From: Cliona cf. orientalis | Lineage: Eukaryota; Porifera; Demospongiae; Clionaida; Clionaidae | DNA length: 64,000 nucleotides | Reading direction: 5' to 3' | Assembly: GCA_963930775.1 (NCBI GenBank) | Contig: OZ005693.1 | Location: 992,001-1,056,000 of the forward strand | Shown here: positions 5,816-62,690 of the stretch, piece by piece | Numbering within the stretch: position 1 is the stretch's first letter | Layout of the letters: each line of letters begins with the position of its first letter | The notes under the pieces: model-generated | The model's database searches: none | The model's input: only the letters and a program-made list of their open reading frames with translations | Told to the model about the DNA's origin: nothing | Made by a program: the position numbers and the translations under genes

Positions 5816-5843
5816 GTCTGCCTACACTCACCTTATTTAGTCC

Positions 5844-8702: not shown

Positions 8703-8742
<40 letters not shown>

Positions 8743-10000: not shown

Positions 10001-10024
10001 GTTTGGCTGATCCGCCCCTTCAGT

Positions 10025-10053: not shown

Positions 10054-10148
10054 AACTGAGCTTTACTACCGCAACCACATCGTTTTCACGCAATCCAAAC
10101 CTTTCTGTAACTTCTCTCGCAAGCACTAGCAACTGAGAACCAACCACA

Positions 10149-11175: not shown

Positions 11176-11183
11176 TATAAAAG
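11176..11183 (+). promoter_or_regulatory. TATA box of ferritin 3
   Basis: TATAAAAG lies about 95 bases before the start codon. The leader between them was read for a CAGTGN loop with a bulged C and none is present. Confidence 0.65.
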
Positions 11184-11277
11184 TGGATAAATGATTCATT
11201 TCTTCAGTAGAATCTTTTCACAGCGTTTCTTGGCATTGTCAGATTCTAGTTTAATAGTTACCAGCTTCCTGAGGACC

Positions 11278-12519: not shown

Positions 12520-12843
12520 ACTTCTTCAGATTCTATACCAAGAGTGTGAACAGGCTATTAATTTTAGTATTAAATCTCAGCTGCGAAATTATGATTTATA
12601 TGATTCCATGGATTTTCCGTTAGCGTGATGAGTATCATTGCTGTATTTTTATGTGCCGCTGTAATAATAATTTTACCCATCAAGGTATGACATTGTGGTT
12701 TTATGCACATGCGCGATGTACTTGGAGGTCACGTCCTCTTGAGTTCCGCCGTTGTATCGGGATGCGTAAACAAACCAGACCACCTACAATCGACCTTCGA
12801 GAGATTGATTCGGCCATCAACGTTTTCCTTATAGTTTGGCGCG

Positions 12844-13851
12844 ATGGCTACTAGTCAAGTGAGGCAGAATTACGACCCTGAATCCGAGGAAGGCGTCAAC
12901 AAACAGATCAATTCCGAGTTTTTCGCCATGTACTCTTACATGTCTATGGTGAGTTAATATCAGGTCGGATGCAATTTACGTTAATTATCAGCTGTTAATC
13001 TACAGAAAAGAAAAGCGTTATGTCCCACAAGGGATAGTTAAAGTTTCTCTCCCGCCTCCAATCCCCTCCCTCCCCCCCCCCCCCCCCCCCCCAACGCACA
13101 CACTCAGTCGTACTACTTTGACAGGGATGACGTGGCTCTCCCTGGCTTTGCTAAGTTCTTCAAGAAAGCTGCCGACGAAGAGAAGGAACATGCAGAATGC
13201 CTTATGAAATTTCAAGTTCAGCGAGGTGGCCGCATCATTCTCAGTGACATCAAGAAACCGATCAAGGACGAGTGGGGCAGTGGACTAGAGGCGATGCAGG
13301 ATGCTCTCGAGCTCGAGAAATCCATGAACAGCAGTTTGATTGAGCTGCACAAGACTGCAAACAAGCACAATGACTACCAGGTGAGTGCAGCAGCTGCCCG
13401 TAGCTGTCCGCTCCATTCAGCTCAGCTCAGAGATCACTATGCAGGGTAGTAATGGATCCATGGAGTACACAAACTTGATAGGGTTGACTTCAATTGGTTA
13501 CTTAGGTGATGCACCCCTTGAATGGGTGTTTAACCTCAGGTTTAATGTTGTGTAATAATGCTGCCTCAAAATGTTATTTTTCTTATCCTGCAAAGGTGAT
13601 CATTTTTGAGCTTGGGTTGGGAAGTGGGCCTGGGAATTAGAAGACTAGTCTTAAAAGAAATGACCCTTAATAATAATAGTTAAACCACCATTGTTATATT
13701 ATAATCACAGATGGCTGATTTTCTGGAGAGCAATTTCTTGCAAGAGCAGGTGGAGTGTATCAAAGAGATGGGAGACCACATCACTAACCTCAAGCGCGTG
13801 GGAGCTGGCCACGGAGAGTACCACTTCGACAAGGAGTCCCTCGATGACTGA
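12844..13851 (+). CDS. Ferritin 4, most diverged copy, without IRE
   Basis: Exons are 12844-12948, 13108-13380 and 13711-13851, giving 172 residues. The N-terminus is [16 protein letters not shown]. The ferroxidase Glu and Tyr lie in [13 protein letters not shown], and [10 protein letters not shown] and LEKSMNSSL are kept, as is the Gln in [12 protein letters not shown]. It is the most divergent of the four and has extra Cys residues. No TATA box or IRE is evident in the 150 bases upstream. Intron 1 contains a poly-C run next to the acceptor. The leader was probably lost in duplication. Confidence 0.95.
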
Positions 13852-19251: not shown

Positions 19252-22200
19252 ATGATGGAGATTAGATTTACGGTGAGTGCTGTGTTTTCACATGATTTTT
19301 AAGTAAAAAGGTCTCTTTTTAATGCTACAGGAACTATTATTGATCTGTGCCTTGTGGGTAATCACTGTATGCACAGGTGAGCTTTATATTATTATTATGA
19401 GCCATGCATACTGCATGGCATTATCAAAACTCAAGTTAAAGCTGCTATAAGTGGTGCGTACAGTGTTGCTTATTGTCTTATTCTAGCACAGGCTGTTAGC
19501 TAGTCGACATAATATTATATACATGATATAGTACTGGATCAGAGAAGCTTGTATACTGTATCTTTCCTGTGCAGCCAACTTTTTGATCATGATGGTCACA
19601 AAAAATTAAACATGCAGTGTAGCTATAGCTAGCTAGCTATTCAGAGAGCTTCACTGGGTGCATACATAAGCTGCATAATTGATTGAAGTTAGTTGGCCCA
19701 TGATCATTAATTTTTAGCCTACTATGGTGCTACACATGCAGGCTCCTCTGGTACTTAGAAATTTGCGCTATAAAGAAAACTTGACCACACACATTAAATT
19801 TAATATTGTATGTACCAGTGTAATATCTTGTGTACTATTACCGGTAATTAATTTTAGTGTGTACATGTATGCTAATTGGCCAAAGTTTTGTTTGTACATG
19901 CACTTGGAGTTGAAGCTATTCATGGTGCAATTGTTTACCAACTCAAAAATAAATCATATCAACATTCATAAATTTGAATATTACCCTGCAGCCTTGTATG
20001 GTATTGTTTAGAGAATTCCAATGGTATTCACAGATGATTAGAAATGTGGGTGGGACAGTTACTGTATTGTTTAGAGAATTCCAATGGTATTCACAGATGA
20101 AAAGAAAAGTGGGTGGGACAGTAATTTAGAAGTTACGTGACCATGAATCATGCTATTCTGACCCTTGTACTTTTAAGCATTTTAGTAATGCTAGCTTACA
20201 TTTGTGGTGCACTACTGCGTAATCATATTATTATGCACAACCTTTACAGTTGGAAATTGCAGTAGTCCAATATTGACACCTGCCCAGACTCGTTCATGCA
20301 TATGTCCTAAATCCAAGTTTGAACTCATCTGCACAGTTATTGGAACAAACACTGATAGCACAATTTGGACTGGGAATGCTATCGAACGTTTATGTCTGAT
20401 GGATATGCAACAAGAGATTATTCTGCCCCATCGAGAATTCAGTGAAAATATAAACAGGACTTGTGATGGACCTATGGATACATATGCTGTTATATTGCAG
20501 AGTCTTGATATTAATGGCAGCTGCTATACTTCTCAACTCATTATCGAATCAGTCACACGTGCATTGGATGACACAGTTGTTATATGTCAGCTTGATAATC
20601 GTACACAAGTGTTTGACATAGGAAATTATACTATCATTCTAACCAAAGGTTGGTACAATGACCTGTATATCCAAGTTTTGTATGCTGCAATAATTAAGGC
20701 CTCTTCTTTTAATTAATTAGATCCATTTCCACCTCCTGATGATGTGCACCTCACTAATATGGACTCCAAAGATCTCACCTTCACATGGAGTAATGTAGCA
20801 CCGGATTGCCCTGCTATTTCTTATGATATAGTGACAGAGAATTGTGGAAACTGTCCAAATGAAACCAACTCAACTACTATCATCTGCTCCTATAATCCAC
20901 AGCTGTTAATGTCAAATATGCAGCAGGCTCAGTGCAATTTGAGTGTCCGATCAATTGCTTGTGGTGATATTGGTGGAGAATATAAAAATTTTTTGATACC
21001 CCTCAAAGGTTAAATTGAATGCATGCTTGCACACAATAATTAATATGTATAATAACCAATTTGCTTGCAGTGAAGGAGCCAGCCGATCGGGATTTGCGTA
21101 GGCTTGGATTGCTAGGTCTTGTACTAGTAATTCCCCTCGGATACTATTGTGTCGTCCTCATCATATTTTGTTACAAAATTCATGATCACCAAGGTATAAT
21201 TTCTATATAATAATTATACAATATGACTGCACATGTATTCATCAGTATGTGTAAATTGTATACTGAAGCTATTGCAGGTAGAAGACCACATGAACTCCAG
21301 CCAGTTGACAAAACCAAATATAAGATGTTTCAACTTAAGCAAGATTATGAATTGGTGAAATTTTTAGGAGATAAATACCGTAGTGGATGTGCATATTATG
21401 AGTTTGTGAATGACAAAGAAGACATTACAATTGGTGTCAAAATCATTCTTGTGGATAAGGTCAGATAAAATAATTTATAATATGACTCAATCGTTGATTA
21501 TTATCTTTCTTTCAAAAGAAATCAGGAAAGTATTTTACTGGACTGGCAGCTCGTAAAATTATTGGTGCTTCAACCAATGAATCGATTACTTGTGTTTCTA
21601 ATCCAAATCTCCAAGAGTACTCCGTATTTGTGCAGGATAACAGTCCAGGTCATAGATTCCTTGCTAAAGGGACATACTTACTTGTGCATAAAGTAAGCAG
21701 TGCTCTATAATAGCATAACTATGATAGCTATAGCTTGTGATTGTTTTCAGAATCATCATCCTGGGCCAGAAGCTCCTGGTAACATTATCAACAGTAGTAA
21801 CTTAAGAAGAAGGAATGCAACAGAAAAAGATGTTGATGAAGTTGATATGCAAGATTTTGAAGTCATTAATGTTGAGAACGAGTGTGGACTGCTACTACTT
21901 TTAAAAGGAAGGAATATTGAATTCAGCAGAGGATGTTCATACTATGAATTCGTTAATGACAGAGAAGACATTTCTAAAGATGTCGAAATCATACTAATGC
22001 ATAAGGTATAAGTTGCACGTGGGACTTGAGTACATGCATGATGCATGTGCATTAGTGCAGATATTATTATATCCAAATTTCCCTGAAAGGTTACAAAGAA
22101 GCTGTATACTGGACCGAATGCTCCCAGAATTGTTGGTATACCAGAAAAAATTGATTCAAATGTAGATGTACTTGCACTTGAAAATCCAAGGCTAAATAAT

Positions 22201-24206
22201 TTTGATGTATTTTTGCAAGATAGAGGTACAGGTTCGAGATATCTTGCTAAAGGAACACACCTCATTTTATGGAAAGAGGTATACCTATGTGATAGAAGAC
22301 TATAGTATAATTATTATTATTATTACGCGGTATTATACACAAGGATGCATGATTATTATATTATGTATACTATATAGGGTTGTGGATTGGATGAAGTCGA
22401 TCGTGCACGCTTTATGCACTTATCTGTAGAGAAAGAAAGTGAACTGCTAACTTTTATTAAGTCACAAGGCTTACCTTATACAAAAGGCTGTGCTTTTTAT
22501 GAGTTTACCCATAGCTCAGAAGATATATCTGAAGACAAAGAAGTGCTACTAATGAATGTAATTAATTATTAGCCAAATAATATCTATCCCAATTATTGTA
22601 TGCAAATATACATGATTGCAGGGAGAAGAATCACTATATACTGGTAAGAGAGCAAAGATTATGATTGGCGCACCTGGCAGAGGAATCAGAAACCCATATG
22701 CGGACAAAAAGAGATATCGGGTGTTTGTACAAAGTACTTGTACAGGAAATAGACATCTAGACAAAGACACACTTCTTTTATATGAGGTATATATTATTAT
22801 ACAATCTATGGAACCCCTTTATTTATAAGGACACCCCTGAAATGATCGAGGACATCTCCCTTAATCAGGACACAGCTAATGGTCCCAACCTAGTACACAG
22901 AGATGCATACAAATTAAAGTACCCCAGGCCTAAAATGAGGAGACGTCCCTTCAAAATATGCACTTCAAGCTATTCATAGGGTGCATGTCCAGAATATAGA
23001 GGGATTCCATAATAATATTCATAATTAAAATATTATGGTACAATTGCTATCCATTGCAAATTACATCGAAGACACGATCAAGAGGATCTGTTTCTGATGT
23101 TTGCCAGGGACATGCTGTTAGAAAATTCAAGCGCATCCAATCACAATTTCTTTTATTACTTGGAAAAGACCAATTTGAGGAGATTAAAGTCACTGAAGAC
23201 TGTCAATTAAGAGAGTTTCTTAAAAGGAATAAAAAGGAGTTTGAGAGGAAGTGCATTTACCTTGAGTTCATAGGTATACAAGATATCCACGATAGAAGAG
23301 ATATCATACTCATGGATGAGGTGAGTACTTGCATGTGTATACTGTAAGTACTTTACCACACCCCCAGCAAGTAAATTTCTACCGGGGAATGATTTTTTTA
23401 TGCTCCTGAGTGATTGGCAATTGAATTGGTGTCTTTATTGAGTGCAGGAGGGTAAATTATTCTCTGGCTCAGAAGCATCAAGGATCATCGGTGTACCTGG
23501 TTCTGGTATTGAAAAGCCAAATATTTCGGGGTATCCCCGAGTGTTTGTTCAGTGTGGAGATGTACATGGTTATGCTGTGTTCCTTACTAAAGGTACTTCA
23601 ATACTATATAAGAAGGTACATATCTCGTGAATTAGATCAACTATGATATGCAATAATTATTATGCTGACTACGTACAATGTTTAATAGATTGAGCAAGAG
23701 ATCCAGTTGCAACCAGTTAAGTCTAAAGAATTCCATGAATACTATGTTGGGAAGACTTGTGAACTCAGCCAGTTTGTTATTGATAATACTGGTGAATTTG
23801 AAAGAGGGCTTGCATATTTTCAATTTACTTGTGAAGCAGAAGATATTTCGAAAGAGAAGGAAGTAATATTGAAGGATAAGGTATTATATCATATGATTCA
23901 CAAATTTGGTCAATTAATCATATAATTTACTGTGCCGTAATTATAGGAAACCAAAGAATTATTTACTGGTGTGGCAGCATGTCAAATGATTGGAGCCCCT
24001 GGGAAAGGAATTCCACGACCATCTGCTGACTTCAAATATATAGTGTTCATCCAAAACTACTCTCGTGGATCAAGATGCCTGATTAAGGGATCTGAATTAC
24101 TATATCGAAAAAAGGTTGCACACATGATATAATATACCTTATGCAGTAATAATTATTATTATGAATCCAATTTCAGGCACCTCAGGAGTCTGCAACACCA
24201 CTGTGA
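19252..24206 (+). CDS. Receptor B: Ig-like/FN3 membrane protein with five novel tandem cytoplasmic modules
   Basis: Exons are 19252-19272, 19331-19376, 20250-20648, 20721-21008, 21071-21193, 21278-21459, 21519-21692, 21751-22005, 22090-22278, 22378-22557, 22622-22786, 23072-23320, 23448-23615, 23689-23880, 23947-24114 and 24177-24206, giving 942 residues with all phases agreeing. The start is a signal peptide, MMEIRFTELLLICALWVITV. Next come the Ig-like domain (CICPKSKFELIC), one FN3-like domain (DPFPPP), a TM helix (LLGLVLVIPLGYYCVVLII), and five repeats of about 110 residues, each encoded by two exons. The first half has GCAYYEFV...EDIS...VILMDK; the second has LFTG...A..IIG.PG.GI, then VFVQ, then LAKGT.LLY.K. 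I do not recognise this module. It lacks the second FN3, the Cys-containing domain and the sushi domain of A and C. Confidence 0.88.
20001..20123. repeat. Tandem duplication of about 60 bases in receptor B intron 2
   Basis: Two near-identical copies run from GTATTGTTTAGAGAATTCC to GGGTGGGACAG. They are non-coding. Confidence 0.85.
22787..23071. repeat. Repeat-like intron between B modules 3 and 4
   Basis: A stretch beginning GGAACCCCTTTATTTATAAG resembles GGAATCCCTTTATTCCGGAC at 50515-50534. Both look like members of one dispersed element. No coding potential was seen. Confidence 0.5.
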
Positions 24207-24718: not shown

Positions 24719-25977
24719 CTATTGGTGAGTAACAGAGCGCATGATTTCATAATTTTCTCCCAGAGGTATCTCAGTATCCACAATTTTCATTGGTGTATTT
24801 CTCGGCACGCTATAGGCTTTATTGTCTGTTGTGTCCGTGTCATTGTTACGTATACTACTTTGACTCAGTAGCATGCTAGCCCGGGGGTCCAGCTCCTCGT
24901 AGACGGAAGACAACTCTGTCACCCTGCTCTGGAGCTGCGCAACACGTGCGCTCGTCTCTTTCTTCTTGCGGGCAAGGGAGATGTAAAGTACCATGAATAT
25001 GATAAGCAGTCCGATCAGAATCACAATAATGGGTATGAAAACTCCCAACGAAATAGGAAGAGAGATTTCAATCGATTCAGCAGTAGTCGGACCTGCAATG
25101 ATAAATAATATGTTTATTTATATCCATTATAAACAATTATATATTATTACAGACTGCCTGTAACAGCATGAGTGACATAAAATAAAGTTTGCATGGCTAC
25201 AATATTGTTATTACTGCTGCAGGTACTGATTTTTTTACACTCACAATTGCACTGCAGAGCGGTCCCATTCCAATTCCCATCTGCCATACACGTTCTCACG
25301 GAGCGGTAGTCACAGTTGAGACAGCGATGGACGGCATATGCTCCCACGAGGGTTCCGCTGTAGCAGGCGTACCCATCCGAGGTGCCGATAGAATTCGACG
25401 GTGGATCGCAAGTAGCACCCTCGGCAAGGGATGATGAAGTTGCCTGGCCATCGTACAAACGATCTGGATCACAACCTTTATCAATGAAAGCAAAACCAGT
25501 CATTAAAAATTTTGTATTGTTGTATACCTTATATAGGGCAAAACTTTGTGCCCCATGCACTATTTGAATACCCTATATATACCATTTCCATGTACAAATG
25601 GAAAAATAATTATCTAGTACTTGCAAATGCTGTTTTAAGCCAAAACATTATATTATAGTTATTACCTGTATTGAATGTGCCCCTTATCATTGCTGTATAG
25701 GTGCCATTGGTAGCATTGACGACAAAGCAGTATGACTGCCTAGCACCACTAAGGCGGCTCACAAAAGGAAGTCCAATAGTCACTGAATCTGATGTGTCCT
25801 GTGCGATCTGCCTAACTTGAGATAAGCGCAGAGTGTCATCGACTTCACAAGTTTCACTCTGATTGTACACAATGGAGCACGTTTTTGTAGCAGAGCTGCT
25901 GGTGCTTTGTTGAAAATTGCAGATAACGGCAGCTGACATCAGGTCAATCGTCACCGTGACAAACTCATTGGTGATCT
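24719..25977 (-). CDS. Receptor C, 3' part: Cys domain, sushi-like domain, TM, tyrosine tail
   Basis: Exons in transcript order are 25977-25666, 25475-25245 and 25092-24719. They encode the Cys-containing domain (FVTVTIDLMSAAVICNF), a sushi-like domain (CMADGNWNGTALQC), a TM helix (VFIPIIVILIGLLIIFMVLY) and a 90-residue tail. The tail carries an ITIM-like SSVYEEL at the same place as in receptor A, and a distal NYEIM that fits the YxxM motif for PI3K p85. The first exon starts in phase 1 with AG, exactly matching the last exon of the 5' part at 47973. With that part the protein is 679 residues, collinear with receptor A. The two halves are 22 kb apart here, across a gap. Confidence 0.85.
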
Positions 25978-26260
25978 CTGCAGGAAAAGCAATACGTAAT
26001 GTCATCTAATACAGTATATCTGCTATTAGCATTAGGCTAAGGCCTTTAGCCTAGCCTAAGGGTCTGTGGTGCTCTGGTACAGATTGGCTGCTGTCAATAC
26101 GGACATACAATGTGAATGAATGCATATGAAGGCCTAGCTCCAACCATATTAGGCTAAGACTGAACATCGTACAAGTCTGAGTCTGCATACCTCTCTTTTG
26201 TAGGGTACATGCCCCTCGGGATAATTCAATTTGGAGGGGGGATCACTTCAGCATTTTTAA
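25978..26260. other. Intronic DNA of receptor C left of the gap
   Basis: No exon was recognised. It is followed directly by the flank that recurs at 47 kb. Confidence 0.5.
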
Positions 26261-27337: not shown

Positions 27338-28138
27338 ATAGAGTAGGGTAGGGTATTATCGGACGGAGGCAGTTACTGGACGCCTCGCACATAATTGCGT
27401 TTATACAGCCAATGGTATTACGTAATCTTTCACCATTCGCCATGAGGTAGGGGCCATGTAAGTACTAGCTATATCTCATTTCTTGTGGTGTGCATCCACA
27501 CAGAAGCTGCATAACACTGCTCTAAACAGTTGCAACTCTTTCGTATTTTTTTCAAGAAGCTGTTTTTTCATGGTATCTAAGATTTATACTATTATTATCA
27601 TGGCACAGCAGCATCAATTTTTGATGAATGGTTTTTTCATTTGGTATGTGCATACTAGAATGTATGAAGAATTTTTAGAATTTTTTCCGGAATTTTTTGA
27701 CCTTATTATAAGCATAAACCGGATTTTTTTTGTAAAGAACTTTCAGAGGTAGTTTCTGGACAATGCATATATTGCATTACTTTATGTATTCATGTATTAT
27801 TTCACAATTTTTGGGTGAATCTTCAAATCTAAAGGCAGGATGTAAGAAGGATGTTGTTTATGATGCATTTGATGCCATTTATGTGTCATATATTGATAAC
27901 CGCAGCCGCGATTTTTTATGTGTTGTTTTTCACCTTCGTCCGGTAATGGTCGACACTGTCCGTTCTCTACCTCCGGAACCAGCGGTACTTTGTGCGCATG
28001 CCCTGCACGAACGGAAGTACGTTGGGCGGGCTCGTTTAGTAGGTAATGTTGCATACTCGCGATCTAGTGCTGCTCGTTTGTCTGTGATATAACGCTGTCT
28101 TTTCTTAGCTGTCCGAAATATGCCAACCCTACTCTACA
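27338..28138. mobile_element. DNA element of about 800 bases, copy 1, in the AMDHD1 intron
   Basis: The ends TAGAGTAGGGT and ACCCTACTCTA are inverted. A second copy lies inverted at 56221-57047. Both keep an open frame of roughly 80 codons (antisense here) with CRPLPD and YILPLDLKIHPKIVK, but no transposase was recognised. Confidence 0.85.
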
Positions 28139-30568: not shown

Positions 30569-33500
30569 GGTGATTTATAGTATAACTGGGCCAAGTCTAG
30601 ATCTGATGGTGCCATCAGGTTGTTTTATCATTATGACTGGTGATTAATTCTAGGTTTGCTGTGACAGAAATGCCATATTGGAGCATTGGAGAGTGGAGAG
30701 CCCACATTGGGTCTTCATGGTGTGCCCTGGGCCGTCCATTCAAGATGAGGTCACCATTTAGAGGAAAGACTCACAGAGGTTTGACGCTGAGTCAAGGAGT
30801 AGCAACACTCTTTCTGTTGATAATGTCAATTGGAGTCAATCTTGGGCTACGCACTTTAGTAGCAAGGGGACGTCATCTCCCACTATTGAGTGAGTGGAAT
30901 GCATGGTCAACACAATTGCCATAATATCTGCCTTACAGTCGGTTCAGTGCATGGCTCATGCATTAATTTTCTTGCAGATTTTTCCAAAGGTGGTACTGTC
31001 CCTGAAAGAATGAATCTTGGCTTGGTTCTCACCCTGATCCTTCAGATTACTTCTGCTCTGGTCTACCAATTATTATCCGTGGCCATCAGAAGATCAAAAT
31101 CTGGTGTTGGTGGTGATTTATCAGAGAGCCTCTCCTTCAGAACTTGCTTTGTTTATTGCTCGATTTTCCTGATGCTGAAAATGATTAATCCATCAATGCA
31201 CCCAGTCCACTGGCTGATCATCTCAGGTAGCTATAGGGAGTGCTCAGTATTGAGTGTGTAATAATTATTATGTGCATAATATAATTTTGTACAATGTCAT
31301 AATATTATAATAATTATTATTATAAATCTTCATGCACATTATTCTGATTATGCATTCAGTCATACAGACAGTGGACTGTCTGATATCACTGAGTGTTTTA
31401 TGGAGAGCCCTGGCCAATAAGCAGGACCTGGTGGAGAAGCTGCATTATGTTGATACTAAAGTAGAAGTTGTGATTATGACCAAGCTCCAGGGGACATGGG
31501 TGTTGGCAGTGGCAAAAGCGGTGCTGGATGTTGCGTTATCAGTAGCTGCTTCTGTCATCTTATCTCTACTGCTGATATCTGGAGATATAGAGGAGAACCC
31601 TGGACCTGTTGGAGGTATATTGATTACTACTACCATGTGCTTGATGATACAACAAATCTATCATGCATAATGTGTTAATGTTCATTTATAGATATTAATT
31701 TTGATGCCATTGATACAACTGAATTGAGTAAGTTCTAATACACATCAGCCTCATGATCTTGATGAACTAATTTGCTCATACTAGATGAGGGTGATCTGTC
31801 CAAAATCATCGAGGAGATACAGCCCTTAGAATCAAGATACTACAACCTTGGTCGATCACTGAATTTGAAAATAGCAGACTTGCGAAAGATTCGTGATGAG
31901 CATCCCAGTGAATCTGATGCTCTCGAAGATGTATTGCTCCTGTGGCTTAATCAAAAGTATGACGAGAAGAAACATGGTCCACCCACATGGCGGATGCTGG
32001 TGGAAGCTGTCAACAGCAAGAGTGGTGGAGGCAACCAGGAACTGGCCAAACAAATTGCATTGAATCATCCAGCAGGTAGTATACTACTATACACTGTAAA
32101 AACAAAGGTGGGTAGATCCCACCACTTTGTCTCCCACGGCACGCCAAATGGGCAATTGGTGTGATAGGGGAAGCAAAATGGTGGACACTACCCACCTAAG
32201 TTTTTACAGTGTATAGTGCATTATTATAATAATATTATTATGAAGTGTGCATGTTACCTTCATGCAATACAGTAATGGGCATCAGGCATAATCTGGCTTA
32301 TAATACCATGTAATCATTAAAGTGCTATATTATACCCAATTGCAACCCCACTTTTTAACCCCTGGATTAGTGTCAATGACATATTTGTAAATAGAGGGGA
32401 ATCAAGCAGCCTGTACAGTTGGCCAAGGAAGCAATCAGCATGCTGCTTCTCCAGTCATGGTATCCCAGCATCATGGAACAAGAGTTGTAGAAATGATTAG
32501 ACGTAGGTGCATCCATACGGTTTTTAAACGTGTGACTTGGAAAAATGTATGGAGGGTATGTGCATGATGAGATGTGTCTATAAACTGTTTCTACAACTCT
32601 TGTATACAGATATCCTCAATATTAGCAATATAAAAGAAGTGCTTGATGAGATGTGGGACTATCGTGCCAGATGGAAATCAATAGGTATCGAGTTGCGTGT
32701 GGACACTGGTACACTTGATACAATTGAGAAAGACTACAGATTAGCTAATGACTGCCTTCAAGAAATGATTAAGCACTGGCTCAGAAACAGTCCAAGACCA
32801 ACTAAAGAAACCATCAGAGCAGCTCTTCGATCTAAGCTTGTCTCAAGTGCAACAGGTAATTATTATGCAAGCAAGCTATTATTATGAGCTATATTATTAG
32901 ATGTTGGTTTCGTAAATATATTCTACGAAGCAGCGAAGCCGCGAGTAGAATTGTGAAACCAACATCTAACTATTTTGGTAGCAGTCACTACTGACCCATT
33001 AACATACTAATGACCCTCTATCACCTCTAACTATCCCACAATTTGGGGTTGAAGATTATGTTGCTATGGTAACTGCTACCAAAGTATTATAGAGTCCATG
33101 ATAATATATATTATCTGTGGCATGCATAGTGCTGTGTGTTAATAGCTCAGCTATACTTTCATATAGATATTATAATCAATATACTAGCACTAGCAAGATG
33201 AAATTTCTGCCCATTTAATACCTGCATGCTCTTATAACTGTAGTTGATGACAGAAAGACTGATTCAGAAGTCACAGATAACAAGTTAAAAGAGTTTACTG
33301 CATACTTGAAATCACTCTACAAAGCCAAGACTCAAGCTAGCTACAGTGGCGATGACCACTGGCCTCCTTCAGTAACTGATAAAGTGTTTAATTTGGCTAT
33401 GATCAAGCCGGAACAAGTGCAGCGAAGAAGTATTGATGATCATTTCATACGTGAGACTATTACGGGAAAGATAGATGATATTCTACAAAGGAAGGTTCCC

Positions 33501-35018
33501 ATTACACTTGAACAAATCTGTGAAAAAGCTGAACAAAAGAAAGAAGGAGCTCCAGGATGTGGGGAAACTGAACAAATGAAAATATTGATTGAAGGAGCCC
33601 CAGGATGTGGAAAAAGTACCCTCTCTCTGCACATTTGCCATGAGTGGGTAGCTGATCGACTATTGAAAGAATACAGTCAAGTCATACTGGTGAAATTGCG
33701 TGAAGAAGTAGTTCAAAATGCCAAGAGCATAGCTGATTTGTTACCAAAACGAGACGGCACAATGGGACAAAATGCAGAGAAGGAGATAACCACTTGTGAT
33801 GGAGAAGGTACTCTTTTCATTTTTGATGGCTGGGACGAGCTACCAGAGAATGCACCAGGCTGTTCTATCATCAGAAACATACTACACTGCAAAAAGCTAC
33901 ACAAAAGCTCTGTAGTCATCACATCTCGCCCCATCTCATCAATGAAACTTCATGAGCTTGTTGAAACTCGAATTGAAATCTTGGGGTTCACAAAAGTTGA
34001 ACTGCAGAAGTATTTTACTGGATGCCTGGGAGAGGATCATGGCAAGGTCAAGGAACTACAACAAAGAATCAAAGAAAACCCAGTTGTAGAAGGCAGCTGC
34101 TACTTACCTTTGAATGCAAGCATCCTGGTCCACCTTTTCAAGTGTGATGGTGTACTTCCACATACTCAATTTGGCATTTTCTCTGCACTTATCCGTAACT
34201 GCATATTTCGGCATCTGAAAAAGAATGAGCAATGTGAAATACCTGGACTAAAAGCACTGGATAAGCTTCCAACTGCTATTCAGAGTCAGTTTCAACGTAT
34301 TTGTGAGATAGCATACAAGGGAGTGATAGAAGACCACATAACCTTTGACCTTGAGCGCAGTTTCAACACTCTTGGTTTACTTCAGGGAGTAGAAAGCTTT
34401 GCTAGTGGAATGCCATCACACTCCTACAACTTCCTCCATCTCTCCATACAGGAACTGTTGGCGGCCATTCACATGGCTACCAAGATGGATCCGAGTGAGC
34501 AGGTGGCACAATTCAAGGAACTCTTTGGTCGGGCTCGCTTTAGCGCTGTGTTCCAGTTTTATGCCGCCAAAACTAAACTTAAAGCACAAGGAATGGATAA
34601 AATCGTTACTTTAGTTGTACAAAAGTGTATGCAAGACAGTGAATTAACAGAATTAACAGAATTAACACCTCATTCTGGTACCAACTCTGATCTGAATTCA
34701 GGTGGCTCCAGCTTGGGCCACAAATCCCAACCGCTTCTTCTCTCATTGCTACACTGTCTCTTTGAAGCTCAAGATGAGACTCTGTGTCAGCTGGTAGCCA
34801 AGGAACTCAAAGGGGAGCTGAGAGGTCTAGAGTATATCAGCCTCAGTCCAGCAGATTGCCTGTCTGTGGGCTACTTTCTCACCCATTGTAGACAATTCAA
34901 CGTGCACCTAGTAAACTGTTTCATGGGTGCTGATGGGTGCAAGGCTTTATTCAGGAAGGATAAAAAATATGACCTTGAATATCTTGAGTACGTGAATTTA
35001 GCGCTAGTCTGGCCATAG
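30210..35018 (+). CDS. NLR-type gene, copy 1: multi-TM module, 2A peptide, Death-Death-NACHT
   Basis: Exons found are 30654-30889, 30978-31226, 31360-31614, 31692-31727, 31785-32075, 32610-32855 and 33244-35018, all phase 1 and consistent. A candidate start exon is 30210-30236 (MAELEAKME), but its phase does not fit the next exon, so an exon is missing or the start is elsewhere. Exons 1-3 encode several hydrophobic helices ending VALSVAASVILSLLLIS, then the 2A motif GDIEENPGP (31581-31607). Two Death domains follow (LGRSLNLKIADLRKI...TWRMLVEAV, and WKSIGIELRVDTGTL). The NACHT has Walker A GAPGCGKST and Walker B LFIFDGWDELP. The frame ends at 35018, as LRRs would begin. It should yield a membrane protein and a separate cytosolic NLR from one mRNA. 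Confidence 0.85.
31581..31607 (+). promoter_or_regulatory. 2A translational recoding motif
   Basis: GDIEENPGP matches the D(V/I)ExNPGP consensus exactly. At such motifs the ribosome skips the Gly-Pro bond, releasing the upstream chain and continuing from Pro. It lies between the last hydrophobic helix and the first Death domain. Confidence 0.9.
32086..32217. mobile_element. MITE in the NLR-type gene intron
   Basis: The ends CTATACACTGTAAAAAC and GTTTTTACAGTGTATAG are perfect complements. Confidence 0.85.
32896..33090. mobile_element. Nested palindromic element in the NLR-type gene intron
   Basis: The arms ATGTTGGTTTCGTAAATA and GAAACCAACAT form an inner hairpin. TTTTGGTAGCAGT and ACTGCTACCAAA form a second pair just to the right. 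Confidence 0.65.
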
Positions 35019-44431: not shown

Positions 44432-45758
44432 ATGGCCAAGCCTGCATGAAGCTAAAATTGGAGATGAGTTGTATAGATCCAATGGTCTGAGGCTAACAGT
44501 GAAAGGAACCTACCATGATGGACAAATACGTTTTTCAGTGTTGTCATACAGATAACTGACTCAGTGCTTTCTTGATTTGCAAGAATTTTGAGGGGTGGAC
44601 GGGCTGGGTATGGTGCTGGATCTTCTTTTCTCGTATACTTTAACTATGCTTTCACATTAAATTTTAGCAGTAGCATGCTCGTAGAGTTTCCCAGAATAAG
44701 GTAGTGCCAAAAGATTTGTAACTTAAAGGGGGGGGGGGGGGGGGGGGGGGGGAGGGATTATAGTATGACCCTGCAGTCTCCAACTCTAGATCTGATAGTG
44801 CATGCCATCATGTTGGATAGACATGCAGAATCAATTTTATCATCATGACTGCATGGTAACTAATTCTAGGTTTGCTGTGACAGAAATGCCATATTGGAGC
44901 ATTGGAGAGTGGAGAGCCCGCATTGGGTCTTCATGGTGTGCCCTGGGCCGCCCATTCAAGACGAGGTCACCATTTAGAGGAAAGACTCACAGAGGTTTGA
45001 CGCTGAGTCAAGGAGTAGCAACACTCTTTCTGTTGATAATGTCAATTGGAGTCAATCTTGGGCTACGTACTTTAGTAGCAAGGGGACATCACCTCCCACT
45101 ATTGAGTGAGTGGTATGCATGATCAACATAATTAGGTTGCCATAATTATATCTGCCTTACAGTCAGTTCAGTGCATGACTCATTCATTTCTTGCAAATTT
45201 TTCCAAAGGTGGTACCGTCCCTGAAAGAATGAATCTTGGCTTGGTTCTCACCCTGATCCTTCAGATTACCTCTACTCTGGTCTACCAGTTATTATCCATG
45301 GCCATCAAACGATCAAAATCTGGTGTTGGTGGTGAATTATCAGAGAGCCTCTCCTTCAGAACTTGCTTTGTTTATTACTCAATCTTCCTGATTTGGAAAG
45401 TGATTAATCCATCAATGCATCCAGTCCACTGGCTGATCATCTCAGGTAGCTATAGTTGAGTGTTTTGCAACATACGTACATGATATTAATATGTGCATAA
45501 TATTATAATATTATTTGTATTAATGTATAATTTTGTGTATGTATATTATAAATCTTTATGTACATTGTTCTGATTATGCATTCAGTCATACAGACAGTGG
45601 ACTGTCTGATATCTTTGAGTGTTCTATGGAAAGCCCTGGCCAATAAGCAGGACCTGGTGGAGAAGCTGCATTACATCGATACTAAAGTAGAAATTGTGAT
45701 GATGACCAAGCTCCAGGGGACATGGGTATTGGCAGTGGCAAAAGCGGTGCTGGATGTT

Positions 45759-45899
45759 GCACTATCAGTAGCTGCTTCTGTCATCTTATCTCTGCTGCTG
45801 GATGTTGCACTATCAGTAGCTGCTTCTGTCATCTTATCTCTGCTGCTGGATGTTGCACTATCAGTAGCTGCTTCTGTCATCTTATCTCTGCTGCTGATA
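45759..45899 (+). repeat. Three tandem 48-base units before the 2A motif
   Basis: Each unit encodes DVALSVAASVILSLLL, a membrane helix. Copy 1 has one unit. The frame is kept because 48 is divisible by three. Confidence 0.95.
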
Positions 45900-45902
45900 T
45901 CT

Positions 45903-45929
45903 GGAGATGTCGAGGAGAACCCTGGACCT
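45903..45929 (+). promoter_or_regulatory. 2A motif of copy 2
   Basis: GDVEENPGP, an exact consensus match, is retained although the gene is otherwise decayed. Its tail GGACCTGTTGGAGGTAT is repeated in the following intron at about 45984. Confidence 0.85.
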
Positions 45930-46485
45930 GTTGGAGGTATAATTACAACAACTATATTACATTGCTTGACAATAATAATATATGGACCTGTTGGAGGTAT
46001 GTATATAATTATAGCAACACGTTACGTTGCTTGACGATATAATATAATATCATGCATAATATTAATGTCTGTTCACATAGATATTGATTTTGATTCCATT
46101 AATATAACGGAATTGAGTAAGTTATTAATAATTTATGCACCAACTGCATGATCTTGAGGAATTAATTTGCTCATCCTAGACGAAGGTGATCTATCCACAA
46201 TCATTGAGGAGATACTGCCCTTAGAATCAAGGTAGCTACTACAATCTTGGTCGATCACTGAATTTGAAAATACCAGACTAAGTCTTGTGAAAGACTCGTG
46301 ATGAACATCCCAGTGATTCGGATGATCTCGAAGATGTATTGCTCCTGTGGCTTAATCAAAAGTACGACAAGAAGAAGCATGGCCCATCCACCTGGCGGAT
46401 ATTATGCTGGTGGATTCTGTCGATAGAATGAGTGGTGGAGACAATCACGAGCTGGCCAAACAAATTGCTTTAAATCATCCAGCAG

Positions 46486-54267: not shown

Positions 54268-56220
54268 CTGCATGTCTTTACCATTGTATCAGCTATTATT
54301 TTTCAACCTTATCTAATACATATTACTACTTATGGGTGCTCACTTGTATTAGCCAGAAATTTGTGCTATTTGTGCATCCTATGTCATCTTGTATGGACAT
54401 GAAATTTTATATACAAAATTTAATTTGCTGCTCAGCCTGTTGCCATGCCATAATAATATTATTATGGCCTTGAATGCTATATCCCTGGCACTGCCTGGGA
54501 CCAAGACCTGGGTAGTTCTATTAATCACGGTGCCCCTTACATTAATTTTATTAAATAGATAAGTTATCATAATACTAGCTTCCCGGGTGACGATCATGTC
54601 AACTGTGGCACTTGGCTGGATGCCGTAGTCAATCAATCAAATATTCATATTAAAGTTTAAGTATATAGTACCACTTTTGTATTGTATTTGATAGATAGAT
54701 AGATATTTTAATGTCGCACATTGAATAATGCATCCGGCCAGGATTTGGCCTATGTGACAAAATTAAAGTTTAAATAAATACGGTAAGAAATAAGAAATGG
54801 ATAATAATAAGTGTAGAAACAAAGGTAAAATTATTTTTAATGGTGTCACTAGATATAATACATTGTTGTTTCAAAAGGATTGTTAATATTCACTACCGTC
54901 AAGTCCTAATAATTTATGTGAGTGTTTGGCAGTACCGTGAGTGACTACTATGATGTGTATGGGTGTGCATAATTCTCCACTGTATTGCATACTTCGATCT
55001 CCCTGAATGTGGTCCTCTTCCTTCCTCCTTCAGCCAGGGTCCAATGATGGCTGATGAGTCAATCAATGCTTCAGTAGCTAGTTATCATAGACTAGGTGTG
55101 TGCCAGGGGTTGATATGATGAGAATAATTATTTGTCTGTCTGATAGCTATAGCTATGCGTAACACAACAACACATACACAGGCTCCTTTTCACACACTTG
55201 TAGAGATGTCGATAATTCTCCAGTGACAGGTAGCCTGGTATCCAGACCATCCCCATGTTTTTCAATGTCAATTGCTAGTGCGCATGCCCAATTGGAGTAA
55301 AAACGGTACAGGGTCGTTAACATTCCTCATATTATAATAGTGACAGGCCTAGCCTCGTCCCCAGGCCCCTGGGGACGAGGCTATGACAGGCCAGGAGTAA
55401 GCTTACTCTTTAAAAAGAGCACTCTTGGTCTGCTACTGATAGTGCTGTAAGCTAAACGATCATCAAAACTGCTCTAGAATGCAAGTATTCACTACTAAAA
55501 TGATAGCTGTCTGTCTGTGGACTGGTGATGCTCACGATTTACTAGGCCACACCTCCTGTTAATTAGTTTAATTTTTCATGCCGACCACCCTGGTCTCTGA
55601 CCCTGGTCTGTTTCCAGCTCCTATTTGTCCGAGAAACAAAACGTCAAATTGGTATGGCCTAAATATGGACTGTACATTTGTATAGTGATGTAAAAGTGTG
55701 TAGATTAGTACACCGCTTGTTTGTTGGTTTCTGGTTACAAGTATCATGGTTCAACAATGAGTCAGCCATGAATCGGATCGTAGGGTACTTGGTGTGACAG
55801 ACAAGCAGCACAGTGGAGTCATACGTCGTCCTGGAAAACTAAGGGTGTATGTCTATCAGATATTTCCACGGGGTGGGTGCCACCCATATAAGGAAGTGGT
55901 ACATGTGCTGCATTAGTACAAAACATGTACCGAAGGAGGAAGATGCCATGTCACATGACAGATTAAATTAGGCATAAGCTCTGCCTTCATGATCAATACC
56001 TTTAGCTACAAGTATCAGCTCTGTTATAGGTTAGGCTGTGCATTGGTCTTGTGAACAAGACTCGGACTTTGATCTCAGTGCTCGACGCACTATATGCACA
56101 CAGTATGCAATGATCGCACTTTGTGTACTACAAGTATAAAAACATTGAAGGATGAAGCAGGGATGGCAGGGCCAAAAATATATGCTTGTGGAGTCTATAC
56201 CAACCCTATGATAAAATTAT
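54268..56220. other. LINE 3' flank and non-coding DNA before receptor D
   Basis: A short GATA repeat is at 54691-54705. A hairpin GCCTCGTCCCCAGG with its complement is at about 55350-55382. The receptor D leader exon should lie here, unless it lies at 57048-57104, but was not identified. Confidence 0.5.
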
Positions 56221-57047
56221 GTAGAGTAGGGTTGGCATATTTCGGACAGCTAAGAAAAGACAGCGTTATATCACAGACAAACGAGCAGCACTAGATCGCG
56301 AGTATGCAACCACAGATAGGCCCAAACACCACCTACTAAACGAGCCCTTAACCGTGGCCCCACCTACTTCCGTTCGTGCAGGGCGTGGGCACAAGGTACC
56401 GCTGGTTCCGGAGGTAGAGAGCGGACAGTGTCGACCATTACCGGACAAAGGTGAAAGAAAATACATAAAAAATCGTGGCTGCGGTTATCAATATATGACA
56501 CATAAATGGCATCAAATGCATCATGAACAACATCCTTCTTACATCCTGCCTTTAGATTTGAAGATTCATCCAAAAATTGTGAAATAATACATGAATACAT
56601 AAAGTAATGCAATATATGCATTGTCCAGAAACTACCTCTGAAAGTTCTTTACAAAAAAAATCTGGTTTATGCTTACAATAAGGTCAAAAAATTCTGGAAA
56701 AAATTCTAAAAATTCTCCATACATTCTAGTATGCACATACCAAACGAAAAAATAATTCATCAAAAATTGATGCCGCTGTGCCATGGTAATAATATTTATA
56801 AATCTTAGCTACCATGAAAAAACAGCTTCTTGAAAAAAAGACGAAAAAGTTGCAACTGTTTAGAGCAGTATTGTGCAGCTTCTGTGTGGATGCACATCAC
56901 AAGAAATGAGATATAGGTAGTACTTACATGGCCCCTACCTCATGGCAAATGGTGAAAGATTACGTAATACCGTTGGCCGTATAAACGCAATTATATGCGA
57001 GGCGTCCAGTAACTGCCTCCGTCCGATAATACCCTACCCTACTCTAC
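56221..57047. mobile_element. DNA element of about 800 bases, copy 2 (inverted relative to 27.3 kb)
   Basis: Same ends and same internal frame as copy 1, in opposite orientation. It lies just upstream of the first recognised receptor D exon. Confidence 0.85.
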
Positions 57048-57104
57048 ATGTATGTGTACAGCGTATTTAATTTCAATGAGTATCTTTTTCTTCTTTTCTT
57101 GCAG

Positions 57105-60100
57105 TTCTCCTAACCTTTGTCAGCTGTCAGTCGGGGAACCTAACGCCCATCAATGATGGATGCGTTTGCCCGGGGGGCGTGCTGCGGTTAAACTGCACAA
57201 CGGTGGGCGATGGCATTACCATATGGAAGGGAACGGCCTTTCCCCAAGTCGGCTGTAACAGAGACATTTCACTGATCCATTCTGAATTCATGGGTCTCAT
57301 TACCAGAAATGAGTCTAGATTTTGCCCTGACTTGGCACCAGCAATTAACGCCACGCCCCTTTCTATTATTAGCAACAGCTACACATCGCAGCTGACTATC
57401 CTAAAAGACCGTGCGGACTTGAATGGGCGCACCATTGTCTGCCAGCACGAGATAACTACGACGACTAACATTGGGACGTATACCATCATGTACACTACAG
57501 GTGAGAAAGAGGGGAAGAAGGGGAGAGAGAGAGAGAGAGAGGGTGAGAAGGAGAGAGAGAGACAGGGAGAGAAGGAGAGAGAGACGAGGAGAGAGAGAGA
57601 GAGAGAAGGAGGGAGAGAGAGACCTATATCTGCTTATGTTTCATTGAGATTTTCCCCTCTTCAAACTAGAGCCCTTTTCTCCGCCGAGCAACATTTCTCT
57701 CACAGCTATCGCCGCCAATGAGCTCACCTTTTCATGGGAAAACGTTCGCCCAAACTGTCTCTCGCTTTCTTACGAAATCGACTCCTCCTCCGCTTGTGGC
57801 AACTGCCCAACAACCACTAATTCTACATCGGTCACATGCTCTAGGGTGCGGCTGAGTGGTGGTGTGGAAATGTGCAGCATCAGCGTTCGAGCCGTCACTT
57901 GTGGAAACATTACTGGAGATTACAGCCAACCTCTCAAAACAATGCTCCAAGGTTTGCAAAACACACTGACTTCAGTTTCTCACAACAACCCGGACCAGAA
58001 AAATACAATAATATTATAACATTTAACTCGTGAAGCCATGTGGTTCAGCAAAGTATAGCTTGTCCTTTATTTAGCTTCTATATCCATTTGTGATGAGCTA
58101 GTGGTGGGTGGGGGGGGGGGGGGGGTGGGGGCGCAGATAGCCCCTTAGTAAATCGAATTCCAATCGAATGGAATTAATTATCGCTATTTCTACTCTTAAC
58201 AGCTGCGAATGCTCCGAGTGTGAGGGTGGTTCCAAGGTATCGTCTAAACTCTGATCTGATCTCCTTTATGGCAGTTTTTGAGGAACTGGTAAGTTTGGTA
58301 ACATTTTTATGATAATTGAGCCGAGCATGTCAAGTGACCAGAACCACCCTTTTGTATCTATATATCTATATTTAGGTACCTGTTTCTATTTCTGGCAATG
58401 ATGTCATAGTGCAGTCCATCCAAGTGAACTACACAACTAGTGATTCGTGTAGTTCCAGTTTTACTCAGTCATGTGACCAGGGGGTGTGTAGCAGAGAAAT
58501 CAACATCATGACATCATCGTGTTCGATCAGTGCCGATTCAGCAGTAACTGTATCAGTGGCAGCTACCAGTGATCTGGGAATGGGACCGACAACGACATTG
58601 AGTATCGGTATGTGACACGAAAGCTTTATGCCCATTGTAATGATATCGCTAATAATACAATACATGTAATTGCTGACTTAGCATTATAGACACCTGGTAT
58701 TGTATAATGTATATCATAGAATTGATAGTAGAAGCTTTTGGACGTATTATTGTTTACGTAAACATTGGTGTTTTAATCTGATCAGTGGACGTAGTTTTGG
58801 GGGAGTTGCTTTGTTTTGAGCCCGTCAACATGTAACCTCATGGAGCAGCTGTCATCATCAGTGTGCAGCATGAAGTATTTTGTTATCAAAACAGGTATAA
58901 GGATGCATGGCATGTCTTTTTGGGTTGTGTTGTATGACTACTCAATGTCATGGTCCTTTGAAAGGTAGCTTATAGACACAAGTGCAGGAGCATATACTCC
59001 TCTCTCTCTCCTTTTCTCTTCTCTCTCTCCCTCCTTCCTCCCCCCTCAGATGGCAGTAGCAGAAATTTTGTACAAGTGAGCTCCAACATTGAAAACTTGA
59101 CCAGGATGACTATCACCTGCGAATTCACTGACCCTCTCGATAATAGCACCAAATTCTGCAATATCACGTACCGTCTCTGTGGACAGCATTTGAGCACAAC
59201 AGCAGAAGGTGTGTTCAGCCCTGACGAACAGAATATAGCCAGAGTTGTGGTAAATTTCTCTGGCCCAGCTGATATGTACTGTTTCAACGTGACGGCCAGT
59301 AATGAGACTTTCATGGTGACTTTCGATGGCAGTATGCCACCGCCTGCTACTACTGGTATAACTACTGGTGTAACTACTGGTGTAACTACGGGTGTAACTA
59401 CTGGTGTAACTACTGGTGTAACTACTGGTGTAACTACTGGTGTAACTACTGGTGTAACTACGGGTGTAACTACTGGTGTAACTACTGGGGTAACTACTGG
59501 TGTAACTACAGCGGTCGAAGGTGAGTGAAATCATTGTCATGATGTAATTAAATATATTATAATAATAATTATTTTGTTCATAATTGTAGTAATTACATCG
59601 AGTAGTGGATTGAGTTCTGGAGCTGTTGCCGCCATTGTGATTGTCATCATTCTTGTTGCTGTTGCACTTGCTATTGCTGCAATCATCATAGTGATAGTTG
59701 TACTAAAATATTTAAAAGGTTGTGATATACCTATGTAGTGATTATACAAGTGCAGGGTCAATTTTATGGGAGTGTTGAAATTTTCAATAATGCAGATCGT
59801 GAGCCAGACAAGAAGAGTCCTCGACATGTGCATTTCACAGGCGATCCAGATGAAAGTGTACGAGTGGAGATTATTGGGGAATCAAAAGACGTGAAAGCTG
59901 GACAAAGTAAGTAGCTACTCTATAGCCGGAAATATTGGCGGGAATTAAATTTGGCGGTTGAGCCCAAAATCACAATATTAGCAGATTTAAATTTGGCGAT
60001 TCAGTACGGGATTGCCATAATATTATGTACATGTATATAATATTTTATGCGAGTAGGAAATTTTGGTGGATTTTAATTTGGCGGTTGTGATATAGACCGC

Positions 60101-61170
60101 CAAACTGCCAAATTTAATTCCCCGCAAAATTTTCCAGCTATACGGTATACTGTTCCCAAAGTAGCTACTCTTCTCTTAGTAACCATTTAACGACAGGGGG
60201 TGGGGTGGGGGAGCCCCCAGGAGGTGGGATCCTTGGGGAGGGAGGGAGCCCCAGGGGAGGGGGCAAGGCTACTGCTACAAAAGTGTGAATTAACTGATAT
60301 AATAATAATATCTTCTTTGTGTTGAACAGCTCCAACTAGGGAGAGGAAACAGATGGAGGAGGACAGTTTACCGCCCACGCCAGTTGTTCCAGCAACGAGC
60401 CGTCTCGGTGGCGTCTTTGAAAAGCGTGCAAATCAAGTTCCTGTGAGTATTTTTACAACTATTATTATAGCAGATCCCCCCAAACCTTTGCTGATTCTTT
60501 TAAAAATAACGTCGTTGTATGAATCGCTGTATAGTGACTGATTCATTGCACTAGTGGGAAAATTATACTGGAGGGTATTACCGTATAGTGGGAAACTTTT
60601 GAGGGAGAAAAATTTCACGAATTTCACGATTTTTCAGCCATCCGCGGAAGTTTTCTCCACGAAATTTTAGGCATATCATACCCATTATGCGACCAGTTTT
60701 TTAACATTCCGTGAAAGTTTTCTCCGCTTTCCTATCGATCTGCAAAAGTTTTCTCCCTCGAAAATTTCCCGCTATACGGTATTATTGTTTGACTAATGTT
60801 GCAGGTGGCCATATCAAGGTATCGAGGTGAAGAGACATTGGAGGCACTGAATAAGCAGTACTGGGTACCAGAAGCATGGACAATGAGAAAGCTGGAGAAA
60901 AGAATAAGGTATGGCTCACAATGTGTATCTCTCACATGTCATACACTCAGTGATAGTCCCTCTCATGTACACACATTAATTTTGTATTCTAGGAAGAAAG
61001 ATCTTCATCTGGAAAGCGAACAACCGTTGTACCTCACCGTTGACAATAAGACTGTGGTTGAAGGCGGCCTAACTTTGAAGGAGGTATACAACACCAACCG
61101 TCACAAGGGAGACAACCACCTTCACATCGCATACTCATCTAAGGATATAGCAGACCCCGATACTTCATGA
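57105..61170 (+). CDS. Receptor D: Ig-like/FN3 membrane protein with an ATG8/LC3-like cytoplasmic domain
   Basis: Exons are 57105-57500, 57670-57951, 58203-58288, 58376-58607, 59050-59520, 59590-59718, 59796-59906, 60330-60442, 60805-60908 and 60993-61170 (TGA), about 700 residues without the leader, phases all consistent. Order: end of signal peptide (LLTFVSC), Ig-like (CVCPGG), FN3-like (CGNCP), second FN3-like, the Cys-containing domain, a Thr-rich stalk of GVTT repeats, a TM helix (AAIVIVIILVAVALAIAAII) and a tail. The last 100 residues align along their whole length with LC3/GABARAP: FEKRANQVPVAISRYRGE, LNKQYWVPEAWTM, LEKRIRKK, PLYLTVDN, GDNHLHIAYSSKD. The C-terminal Gly needed for lipidation is absent (ends IADPDTS). 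No sushi-like exon is present. Confidence 0.85.
57514..57622. repeat. GA-rich simple repeat in a receptor D intron
   Basis: Runs of GAGAGA and GGGAGAGAA directly after the first donor. Confidence 0.9.
59356..59510 (+). repeat. 12-base coding minisatellite in the receptor D stalk
   Basis: About a dozen copies of GGTGTAACTACT encode GVTT. A Thr-rich stretch next to the membrane suggests an O-glycosylated stalk of variable length. Confidence 0.93.
59921..60145. mobile_element. MITE in a receptor D intron, degenerate left end
   Basis: TTGGCGGGAATTAAATTTGG near the left end is mirrored at the right, ending AGCTATACGG followed by TA. Confidence 0.78.
60581..60779. mobile_element. MITE in a receptor D intron, CCGTAT ends, TA-flanked
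   Basis: The ends CCGTATAGTGGGAAACTTTT and TTCCCGCTATACGG, with GAGGGAGAAAA and its complement. TA lies at 60579-60580 and 60780-60781. It separates two exons of the ATG8-like domain. Confidence 0.88.
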
Positions 61171-61660
61171 CCAGTCACATACGGACTGATACTATAAGAG
61201 ACTGGTACTTGTGTCTTAATTTCTGTTGTTATTGCTTTTAGAAGATATGTCGTGTATAATGTGCCATTCACTGGGCAAAAAATGGGATTTCTTACTATAG
61301 GTAATGTGGCTGAGAGGTGGGTGTTAGATGACATAACAGACAACAATCCTATATACTTACAGGATTCATGATATTTCATAATGCATGTCAGGTAGAGGAT
61401 AGGGCTAAATCCCAGGTACCAAACATGTGGTGTACAAGTGACGTGTCCTATAGTTTTCCTGCTGCATGATTTCTGAATGAGAATTGAAATTTCATGTACA
61501 GAATTCATATAGTTCAATTGAAATTTCCAGTACAAAACAAGTACTATCTGATATGTCAAATTAATGGTACTGAATCACTAAATGACAACTGATATTTCTT
61601 AGTGCACAACAGTTCAATTTAGAATCTTGCTACTACCAACAGAGCTTGTCACTGCAAGTT

Positions 61661-62690
61661 CTATGCTTGGTTGCCACGCTGCTTGAGCCCATATGTTGCA
61701 TCTAAGTAACTTCTTTCAGCATACCACAGCAATGATCGTTTCTCCTCATCTTCACGATCTTCAGTTTGCACATCCACTTTTGTCAATCATCTTGATTGCA
61801 CACTCTTTTCTTGAATACTCAACATATCCTCAAGTTTCTGTGTAAAGGTAGTACAGGATATAAATGCATGTGTACACAGCAGCATAATAATACAATAACT
61901 AAGCACCATGCACACACACACACACAACATACATGCACCATTTGTTACGGTACAGCCTATAAGATGTGCCATCTCGATAGAAGCTGCCAGGAGATGAGGC
62001 ATCTCAGCAGCAAACTGTACCAAAAACTACGCACAAATGTAACACACACACACACAAGGTCATGCACTTTACATAGGTACAGCCTATAAGATGTGTCATC
62101 TCGATAGAAGCTGCCAGGAGATGAGACATCTCAGCAGCGAACTGTACCAAAAAGTACACACACACACACACAGAGCATATAAATGGACAGTATGAATACA
62201 AGGAGTGAGACTATCAGCAACCATATGGCCATAGCAGCAACTAACAATCAACTCTTTCAGGGGTCTATATGCCCTTGACACGCACATATTTAAATATTAT
62301 GCACCTATCAATGTATTGCCCCACCTACCACCCCACTGGCAAAAGGTGGGGATTTGATCGTATTTGACCAATATACATGCCCCGGATCAGGGGGATTTGA
62401 TCAATATTTATGGATAGCAGGGGGAAATATACAGTCCGAATGGGGGGGATTTGATCCAAGCATTCGCTCCAGGGGAGAGGCAATTGATTTCACATAGGTC
62501 AAATCCCCCACCCTTGCCCGTGGGGTGGTACCTGGGGCAATACATTGATAGGTGCATTAAACCTAGCTTACCCAGGCTTGATGTTTCCTCACTCCTTTTG
62601 CTTCTTTTACGTTCTCGATCTCCCGATTTGCTGAGACATCGCTCGAATTCACTATGGTCAAAGTTTTCAACTTTTGAAATGTTCGGTCAC
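61661..62690 (-). CDS. Unrecognised minus-strand gene with a tandem-duplicated exon and an in-frame TGA
   Basis: Exons I can support, in transcript order, are about 62690-62572 (FERCLSKSGDRERKRSKRSE), 62141-62073 (FAAEMSHLLAASIEMTHLIG), 62014-61949 (FAAEMPHLLAASIEMAHLIG) and 61837-61661 (KLEDMLSIQEKSVQSR, TGA, then LTKVDVQTEDREDEEKRSLL to a TAG). The two middle exons are near-identical, separated by a 58-base intron. The coding character continues after the TGA at 61787-61789, which could be a true early stop, an error, or read through. The start and one middle exon are not resolved. No family was recognised. Confidence 0.5.
62301..62559. mobile_element. MITE with GCACCTATCAATGTATTGCC ends
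   Basis: The left end is perfectly complemented by GGCAATACATTGATAGGTGC at the right. GGGATTTGATC pieces are repeated inside. It lies next to the donor of the first exon of the 62 kb gene. Confidence 0.9.

Follow-up and report, generated by a model that had tools for sequence, protein, structure and literature searches.

A predicted sponge surface receptor with a putatively LC3-derived, ATG8-like cytoplasmic tail

ATG8 proteins depend on a conjugation machine for their attachment to membranes, and once lipidated they are held with their UIM-docking side facing the membrane. In LC3-associated phagocytosis, LC3 is lipidated onto membranes that hold outside cargo. The gene described here, from the sponge Cliona cf. 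orientalis, would likewise bring ATG8 to membranes with outside cargo, but with the ATG8 domain as part of the receptor instead of a lipidated LC3. It lies in a window of 64,000 nucleotides (assembly GCA_963930775.1, contig OZ005693.1, positions 992,001 to 1,056,000), in which a sequence-only reading had noticed a receptor with an LC3-like tail, a layout for which it knew of no described example; among the matches listed in the open-access literature there was none either. Positions below are those of the window unless a contig is named.

The gene, receptor D, has ten exons spanning 57105-61170 on the plus strand, all in phase and bounded by AG/GT splice sites, five of them for the ectodomain, one for the transmembrane (TM) segment, one for the juxtamembrane part and three (t1 to t3) for the tail:

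57105..57500, plus strand: Cys-rich ectodomain exon, called 'Ig' in the sequence-only reading; phase 1-1, AG/GT, open frame; 95% amino acid identity in the paralogue
57670..57951, plus strand: FN3-like ectodomain exon; phase 1-1; fn3 match below cut-off; present in the paralogue
58203..58288, plus strand: ectodomain exon; phase 1-0; present in the paralogue
58376..58607, plus strand: ectodomain exon; phase 0-1; present in the paralogue
59050..59520, plus strand: ectodomain exon and stalk of TTGV repeats; phase 1-1; present in the paralogue
59590..59718, plus strand: transmembrane exon, about 29 hydrophobic residues and then KYLK; phase 1-1; read from the sequence
59796..59906, plus strand: cytoplasmic juxtamembrane exon; phase 1-1; present in the paralogue
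60330..60442, plus strand: tail exon t1, encoding a linker and the beginning of the ATG8 match; phase 1-0; AG/GT
60805..60908, plus strand: tail exon t2, encoding the N-terminal half of the ATG8 core; phase 0-2; PF02991 match; borders as in LC3 exon 3
60993..61170, plus strand: tail exon t3, encoding the C-terminal half of that core, with the stop codon; phase 2-stop; PF02991 match; border as in LC3 exon 4

Each tail exon is preceded by an AG acceptor, t1 and t2 are followed by a GT donor, and the in-phase chain over all ten exons bears out the earlier claim that the junction phases connect the ATG8-like exons to the TM exon, which as read would supply a single TM helix followed by basic residues. 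We infer that receptor D is probably one gene, giving one transcript and a type I membrane receptor with an LC3-derived, ATG8-like cytoplasmic tail. A search for a signal-peptide exon in D and in its paralogue E gave no convincing candidate: one near 56.1 kb has a donor whose phase does not fit, and another is present only in E. The intron between t2 and t3 stays open in D, where it has 84 nt, but has 86 nt in E, so this readability was taken as incidental and a retained intron was set aside.

The ectodomain had been described as Ig/FN3, which was an overstatement. The exon at 57670..57951 matched Pfam fn3 at E=0.00024 with 21.7 bits, below the cut-off of 25, two of the five members of its exon family matched fn3 at E<=1, and its matches among PDB profiles were titin and fibronectin (0.017-0.47); for the 'Ig' exon, none of five family members matched any Pfam family at E<=1, and the best PDB profile match stood at 0.17. 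Besides ATG8 and the weak fn3, Pfam returned for the joined product TMEM154, as a sub-threshold match that spans the stalk and the TM part. The exon at 59050..59520 is 27-28% identical to exons of two other relatives in the window, and the ectodomain family is large in this genome (at least 189 matches, with 150 of 608 candidates scored).

Members of this FN3-like family carry their ectodomain modules in phase-1 exons, as receptor D does, whereas the three window relatives whose tails were read by eye (near 15-18 kb on the minus strand, 20-24 kb on the plus strand and 25-26 kb on the minus strand, leaving out one near 49 kb on the minus strand) have tails with tyrosine motifs or YEF repeats, with no ATG8 seen. 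The relative at 20195-24129 (+) appears to continue into a TM-like segment and about five tandem copies of a domain (YEF..EDI ... GAPG..I), two of which were tested and gave no Pfam match. Those at 15245-17805 (-) and 24722-26005 (-) have short tails, by eye, with the tyrosine motifs YEDI and YNTI, and YEEL, YSVP and YEIM, respectively, which resemble ITIM/ITAM or are possibly LIR motifs. Elsewhere in the window there are tandem ferritin-like exons (4900-13446, +, by eye), a 2A-like peptide (EENPGP) that would lie ahead of an ORF containing the P-loop GAPGCGKS (31326-35015, +), and another 2A-like copy, apparently with a triplicated leader segment (45552-46031, +). An Rfam search of the 64,000-nt window gave no match.

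The joined tail exons (105 aa) matched the Pfam ATG8 family PF02991 with 51.6 bits (cut-off 27, E=1.2e-13), and the whole joined product (700 aa) did so at E=4.3e-12, placing a predicted ATG8 ubiquitin-like core in the tail. Among the best 60 of 114 phmmer matches to PDB chains LC3B stood at the top (5e-10), with LC3C at ~2e-8, LC3A at ~3e-8 and, on the GABARAP side, GABARAPL2 at ~7e-8 and GABARAPL1 at ~2e-5; a search of NCBIfam with the tail gave no match. The reading of the last three exons as an ATG8/LC3-like domain was thereby confirmed, but its alignment 'from end to end' survived only in part: of the 104 profile positions, 11-101 are matched, and the two N-terminal ATG8 helices are not recognisable, with t1 aligning poorly to LC3 exon 2. 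In a hand-laid alignment of the core, the tail shares 31 of 92 residues with the LC3 of this genome and 22 of 91 with one GABARAP, while MAFFT gives 29% to the genome's LC3 and 21% and 20% for the other two values; the predicted pI of the aligned cores is 9.2 for the tail against 6.1 for that LC3. The absence of the C-terminal glycine used for conjugation, which had also been noticed, is seen in both copies, which end in IADPDTS, and the usual lipidation is therefore impossible for this tail.

One LC3-type gene was found in the genome, on C16. Its exon 2 begins in phase 1, and its later borders, read by eye, fall at VP/V in phase 0 and at IIR/N in phase 2. The tail runs through the phases 1, 0 and 2 with borders at VP/VAIS (phase 0) and RIR/KK (phase 2), matching these positions, and since both introns of the domain are placed as in the C16 gene, the one LC3 gene used as reference, the domain probably comes from LC3 exons. 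Two GABARAP-type genes on C3 have, by eye, only the VP/V border in common with the tail. LC3-type ATG8 thus shares with it the core and two intron positions with their phases, and differs in having the glycine, HP1 (mostly lost in the tail) and recognisable helices and in not being fused to a TM segment; GABARAP-type ATG8 shares the core and the first intron, with lower identity and different later introns. Most likely, as judged from these exon borders, the tail arose when the last LC3 exons were captured by joining at a phase-1 intron, rather than by retroposition.

The receptor-ATG8 architecture is present in two intact tandem copies, as paralogue E (C5:1092661-1096606, ~43 kb downstream) keeps every one of the ten exons, each with an open frame and the same splice sites. 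The two copies are similar over 57045-60448 and 60780-61265, with a break at 60449-60779 and an extra 154-bp piece at 56068-56221, and the similarity stops 95 bp past the stop codon of the tail. The interval 56222-57044 is an insert of ~820 bp in D that is absent from E, and an ORF translation inside it resembles that at 27736-28089. Between D and E, 1994 of 2087 exon and 1506 of 1692 intron positions are identical; for the tail these values are 369 of 395 in the exons, with zero gap columns and no indel, frameshift or stop, and 510 of 640 in the three introns beside them. The t1-t2 intron (108/192 identical, 171 gap columns) supplies most of this contrast, whereas the t2-t3 intron matches its flanking exons in similarity (79/84). 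Introns span 56% to 98%, several of those in the ectodomain lying at 97-98%, and sequence exchange between the copies is therefore possible.

The dN/dS between D and E was 0.23 for t2 and t3 together (9 synonymous and 8 non-synonymous changes), 0.61 for t1 alone, whose first 59 nt are identical, 0.19 for the juxtamembrane exon (4 and 3 changes) and 0.42 for the ectodomain, where the first exon alone gave 1.1 on 2 and 7 changes. A binomial test of constraint, uncorrected for transition bias, gave p values of 0.005 (t2+t3) and 0.008 (t1-t3). The ATG8 exons thus show signs of constraint, with two copies that may exchange sequence being thin evidence for selection.

A third receptor-ATG8 fusion was sought in the genome with the tail, the TM and juxtamembrane part, and the genome's LC3 as queries, and none was found. 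A PF02991 search of the genome gave 17 exon matches; it did not return the known D and E exons, so diverged copies could be missed. Four of these matches, on C8 (7.53-7.68 Mb), look GABARAP-like by eye, with nothing receptor-like in the listed ORFs, that on C7 looks ATG12-like and that on C15 spurious (both by eye), and the remainder belong to the C16 LC3 gene and three GABARAP-like genes on C3. The C8 matches are four scattered GABARAP-like copies (C8:7526696-7675455), at least three of them without the introns that the C3 genes have in their C-terminal half, and are possibly retrocopies. In two scans of viral contigs for relatives of the tail, none of 17 and none of 101 pattern stretches were confirmed, and a scan of genome contigs gave one ATG8-like ORF among 135 stretches, in a cyanobacterial MAG and not in a receptor. 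This ORF (L040:2995-3306, Symploca sp. SIO3C6, 307-kb contig) is contiguous, encodes 103 aa without a terminal Gly, matches PF02991 at 3.4e-30, and would reflect a transfer or an assembly mix-up.

According to PMC7615515, the LIR pocket HP1 of LC3B is formed by D19, I23, P32, I34, K51, L53 and F108, HP2 by F52, V54, P55, L63, I66 and I67, and the UDS is the region around F79 and L81, for whose binding of UIM-like sequences structural proof is said to be lacking. With D19 and I23, which lie outside the alignment, excluded from the count, the D tail retains 5 of the 11 alignable residues. In both copies HP1 is down to one of five (I34A, K51Q, L53W, F108H), and HP2 has four of six in D and three of six in E, with the change I66R; K49 is retained, though a one-residue gap before Q51 makes it slightly uncertain where K49 and K51 fall. 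The genome's LC3 retains five of five in HP1 and five of six in HP2, and since one GABARAP, also complete in HP1, has only two of six in HP2, it is the loss of HP1 that is informative. The UDS strand reads LYLT in D and E, where the LC3 of this genome has FYLL and one GABARAP has IYLM; by sequence it fits a UIM-docking strand (psi-F-psi-aromatic/T) with Y in place of F, as in those two proteins. A normal LIR-docking surface in the tail is thus doubtful on these residues, and a UIM-type or altered docking surface appears more likely.

The sequence-only reading had proposed instead that the tail always presents an ATG8-type docking surface, and it expected a fold with both LIR pockets; as a constitutive LIR-docking surface the tail would work like LC3 on a phagosome. 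HP2, partly retained, and K49 are what this model can draw on, but it has to accommodate an HP1 that is largely gone, R in place of I66 in HP2, N-terminal helices that help to form HP1 but are not recognisable, and Q at position 51, where, according to PMC7615515 and PMC5430633, K51A lowers or abolishes LIR binding; the claim is not supported in this form, and we consider the model improbable. That the tail is a functionless, decaying remnant would agree with its fast divergence from the genome's LC3, but is made highly improbable by the low dN/dS of t2+t3 and by tail exons that are free of frameshifts, stops and indels in both copies.

Two other explanations concern the end of the transcript. 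Just past the juxtamembrane exon, in D and in E, read-through meets a stop codon (..GQSK) and an ATTAAA (window 59944 and C5:1095599), 38 nt beyond the exon end. The receptor could therefore end in ..KAGQSK, with t1-t3 forming a separate small LC3-like gene (123 aa) that starts from a Met in t1, where there is an in-frame ATG at 60353; but the t1 acceptor is in exactly the required phase, only 423 bp separate it from the juxtamembrane exon, E preserves the whole receptor-tail unit, and the 23 nt of t1 before this ATG are identical in D and E whereas the preceding intron is at 88.7% (323/364), all of which makes a separate gene distinctly improbable. Alternatively, one gene would yield short-tailed (..KAGQSK) and ATG8-tailed forms through regulated alternative 3' ends, the ATTAAA being a possible alternative polyadenylation site in both copies. 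No AATAAA or ATTAAA was seen 3' of the tail, in 61170-62500 or the matching stretch of the paralogue, and with such a signal after the juxtamembrane exon and none over ~1.3 kb past the tail the short-tailed isoform is a serious possibility; yet the ATTAAA lies in a stretch that comes back within this intron, partly in inverted form, and by eye may be a repeat, and overall we think the regulated choice unlikely.

The explanation that we favour, as somewhat more probable than not, is that a type I membrane receptor gained an LC3-derived tail. The last exons of LC3 (phases 1, 0, 2 and stop) would have been joined downstream of a receptor built mostly of phase-1 modules, and the fused gene would then have been duplicated into two tandem copies. 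The TM helix would anchor the tail from its N-terminal side, the reverse of lipidated LC3, so that the UIM-docking side (LYLT) could face the cytosol, HP1 having decayed. Through that side or an altered pocket the tail might act constitutively as a platform at the membrane to which trafficking adaptors are recruited, and the receptor with its bound cargo, perhaps microbes, might be moved to endosomes or lysosomes without the lipidation machinery. A bolder reading, at a little less than even odds, is that D and E belong to a novel class of surface receptors in animals, with an LC3-derived, non-lipidated signalling or sorting tail that is tethered from the opposite end and whose formerly membrane-facing side now docks. 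The domain homology, the exon structure, the LC3 intron positions, the duplication, the constraint and the loss of the glycine and of HP1 residues are seen in the genome, while the single transcript, the topology, the capture of LC3 exons, the ligand and cargo and the UIM-type docking are our projection from them.

At the level of sequence, exons and domain confirm a real and unusual receptor-LC3 fusion. A gene that hard-wires ATG8 to a receptor would bypass the conjugation machine, and the separation of features in its tail, with HP1 mostly lost, the UDS strand kept, no glycine and helices that are not recognisable, would offer a natural test of the UIM-docking side alone. It would also be a case of exon shuffling that brought an autophagy gene into a large family of receptors and, if the bolder reading is true, an autophagy-type recruiter wired straight to outside recognition.
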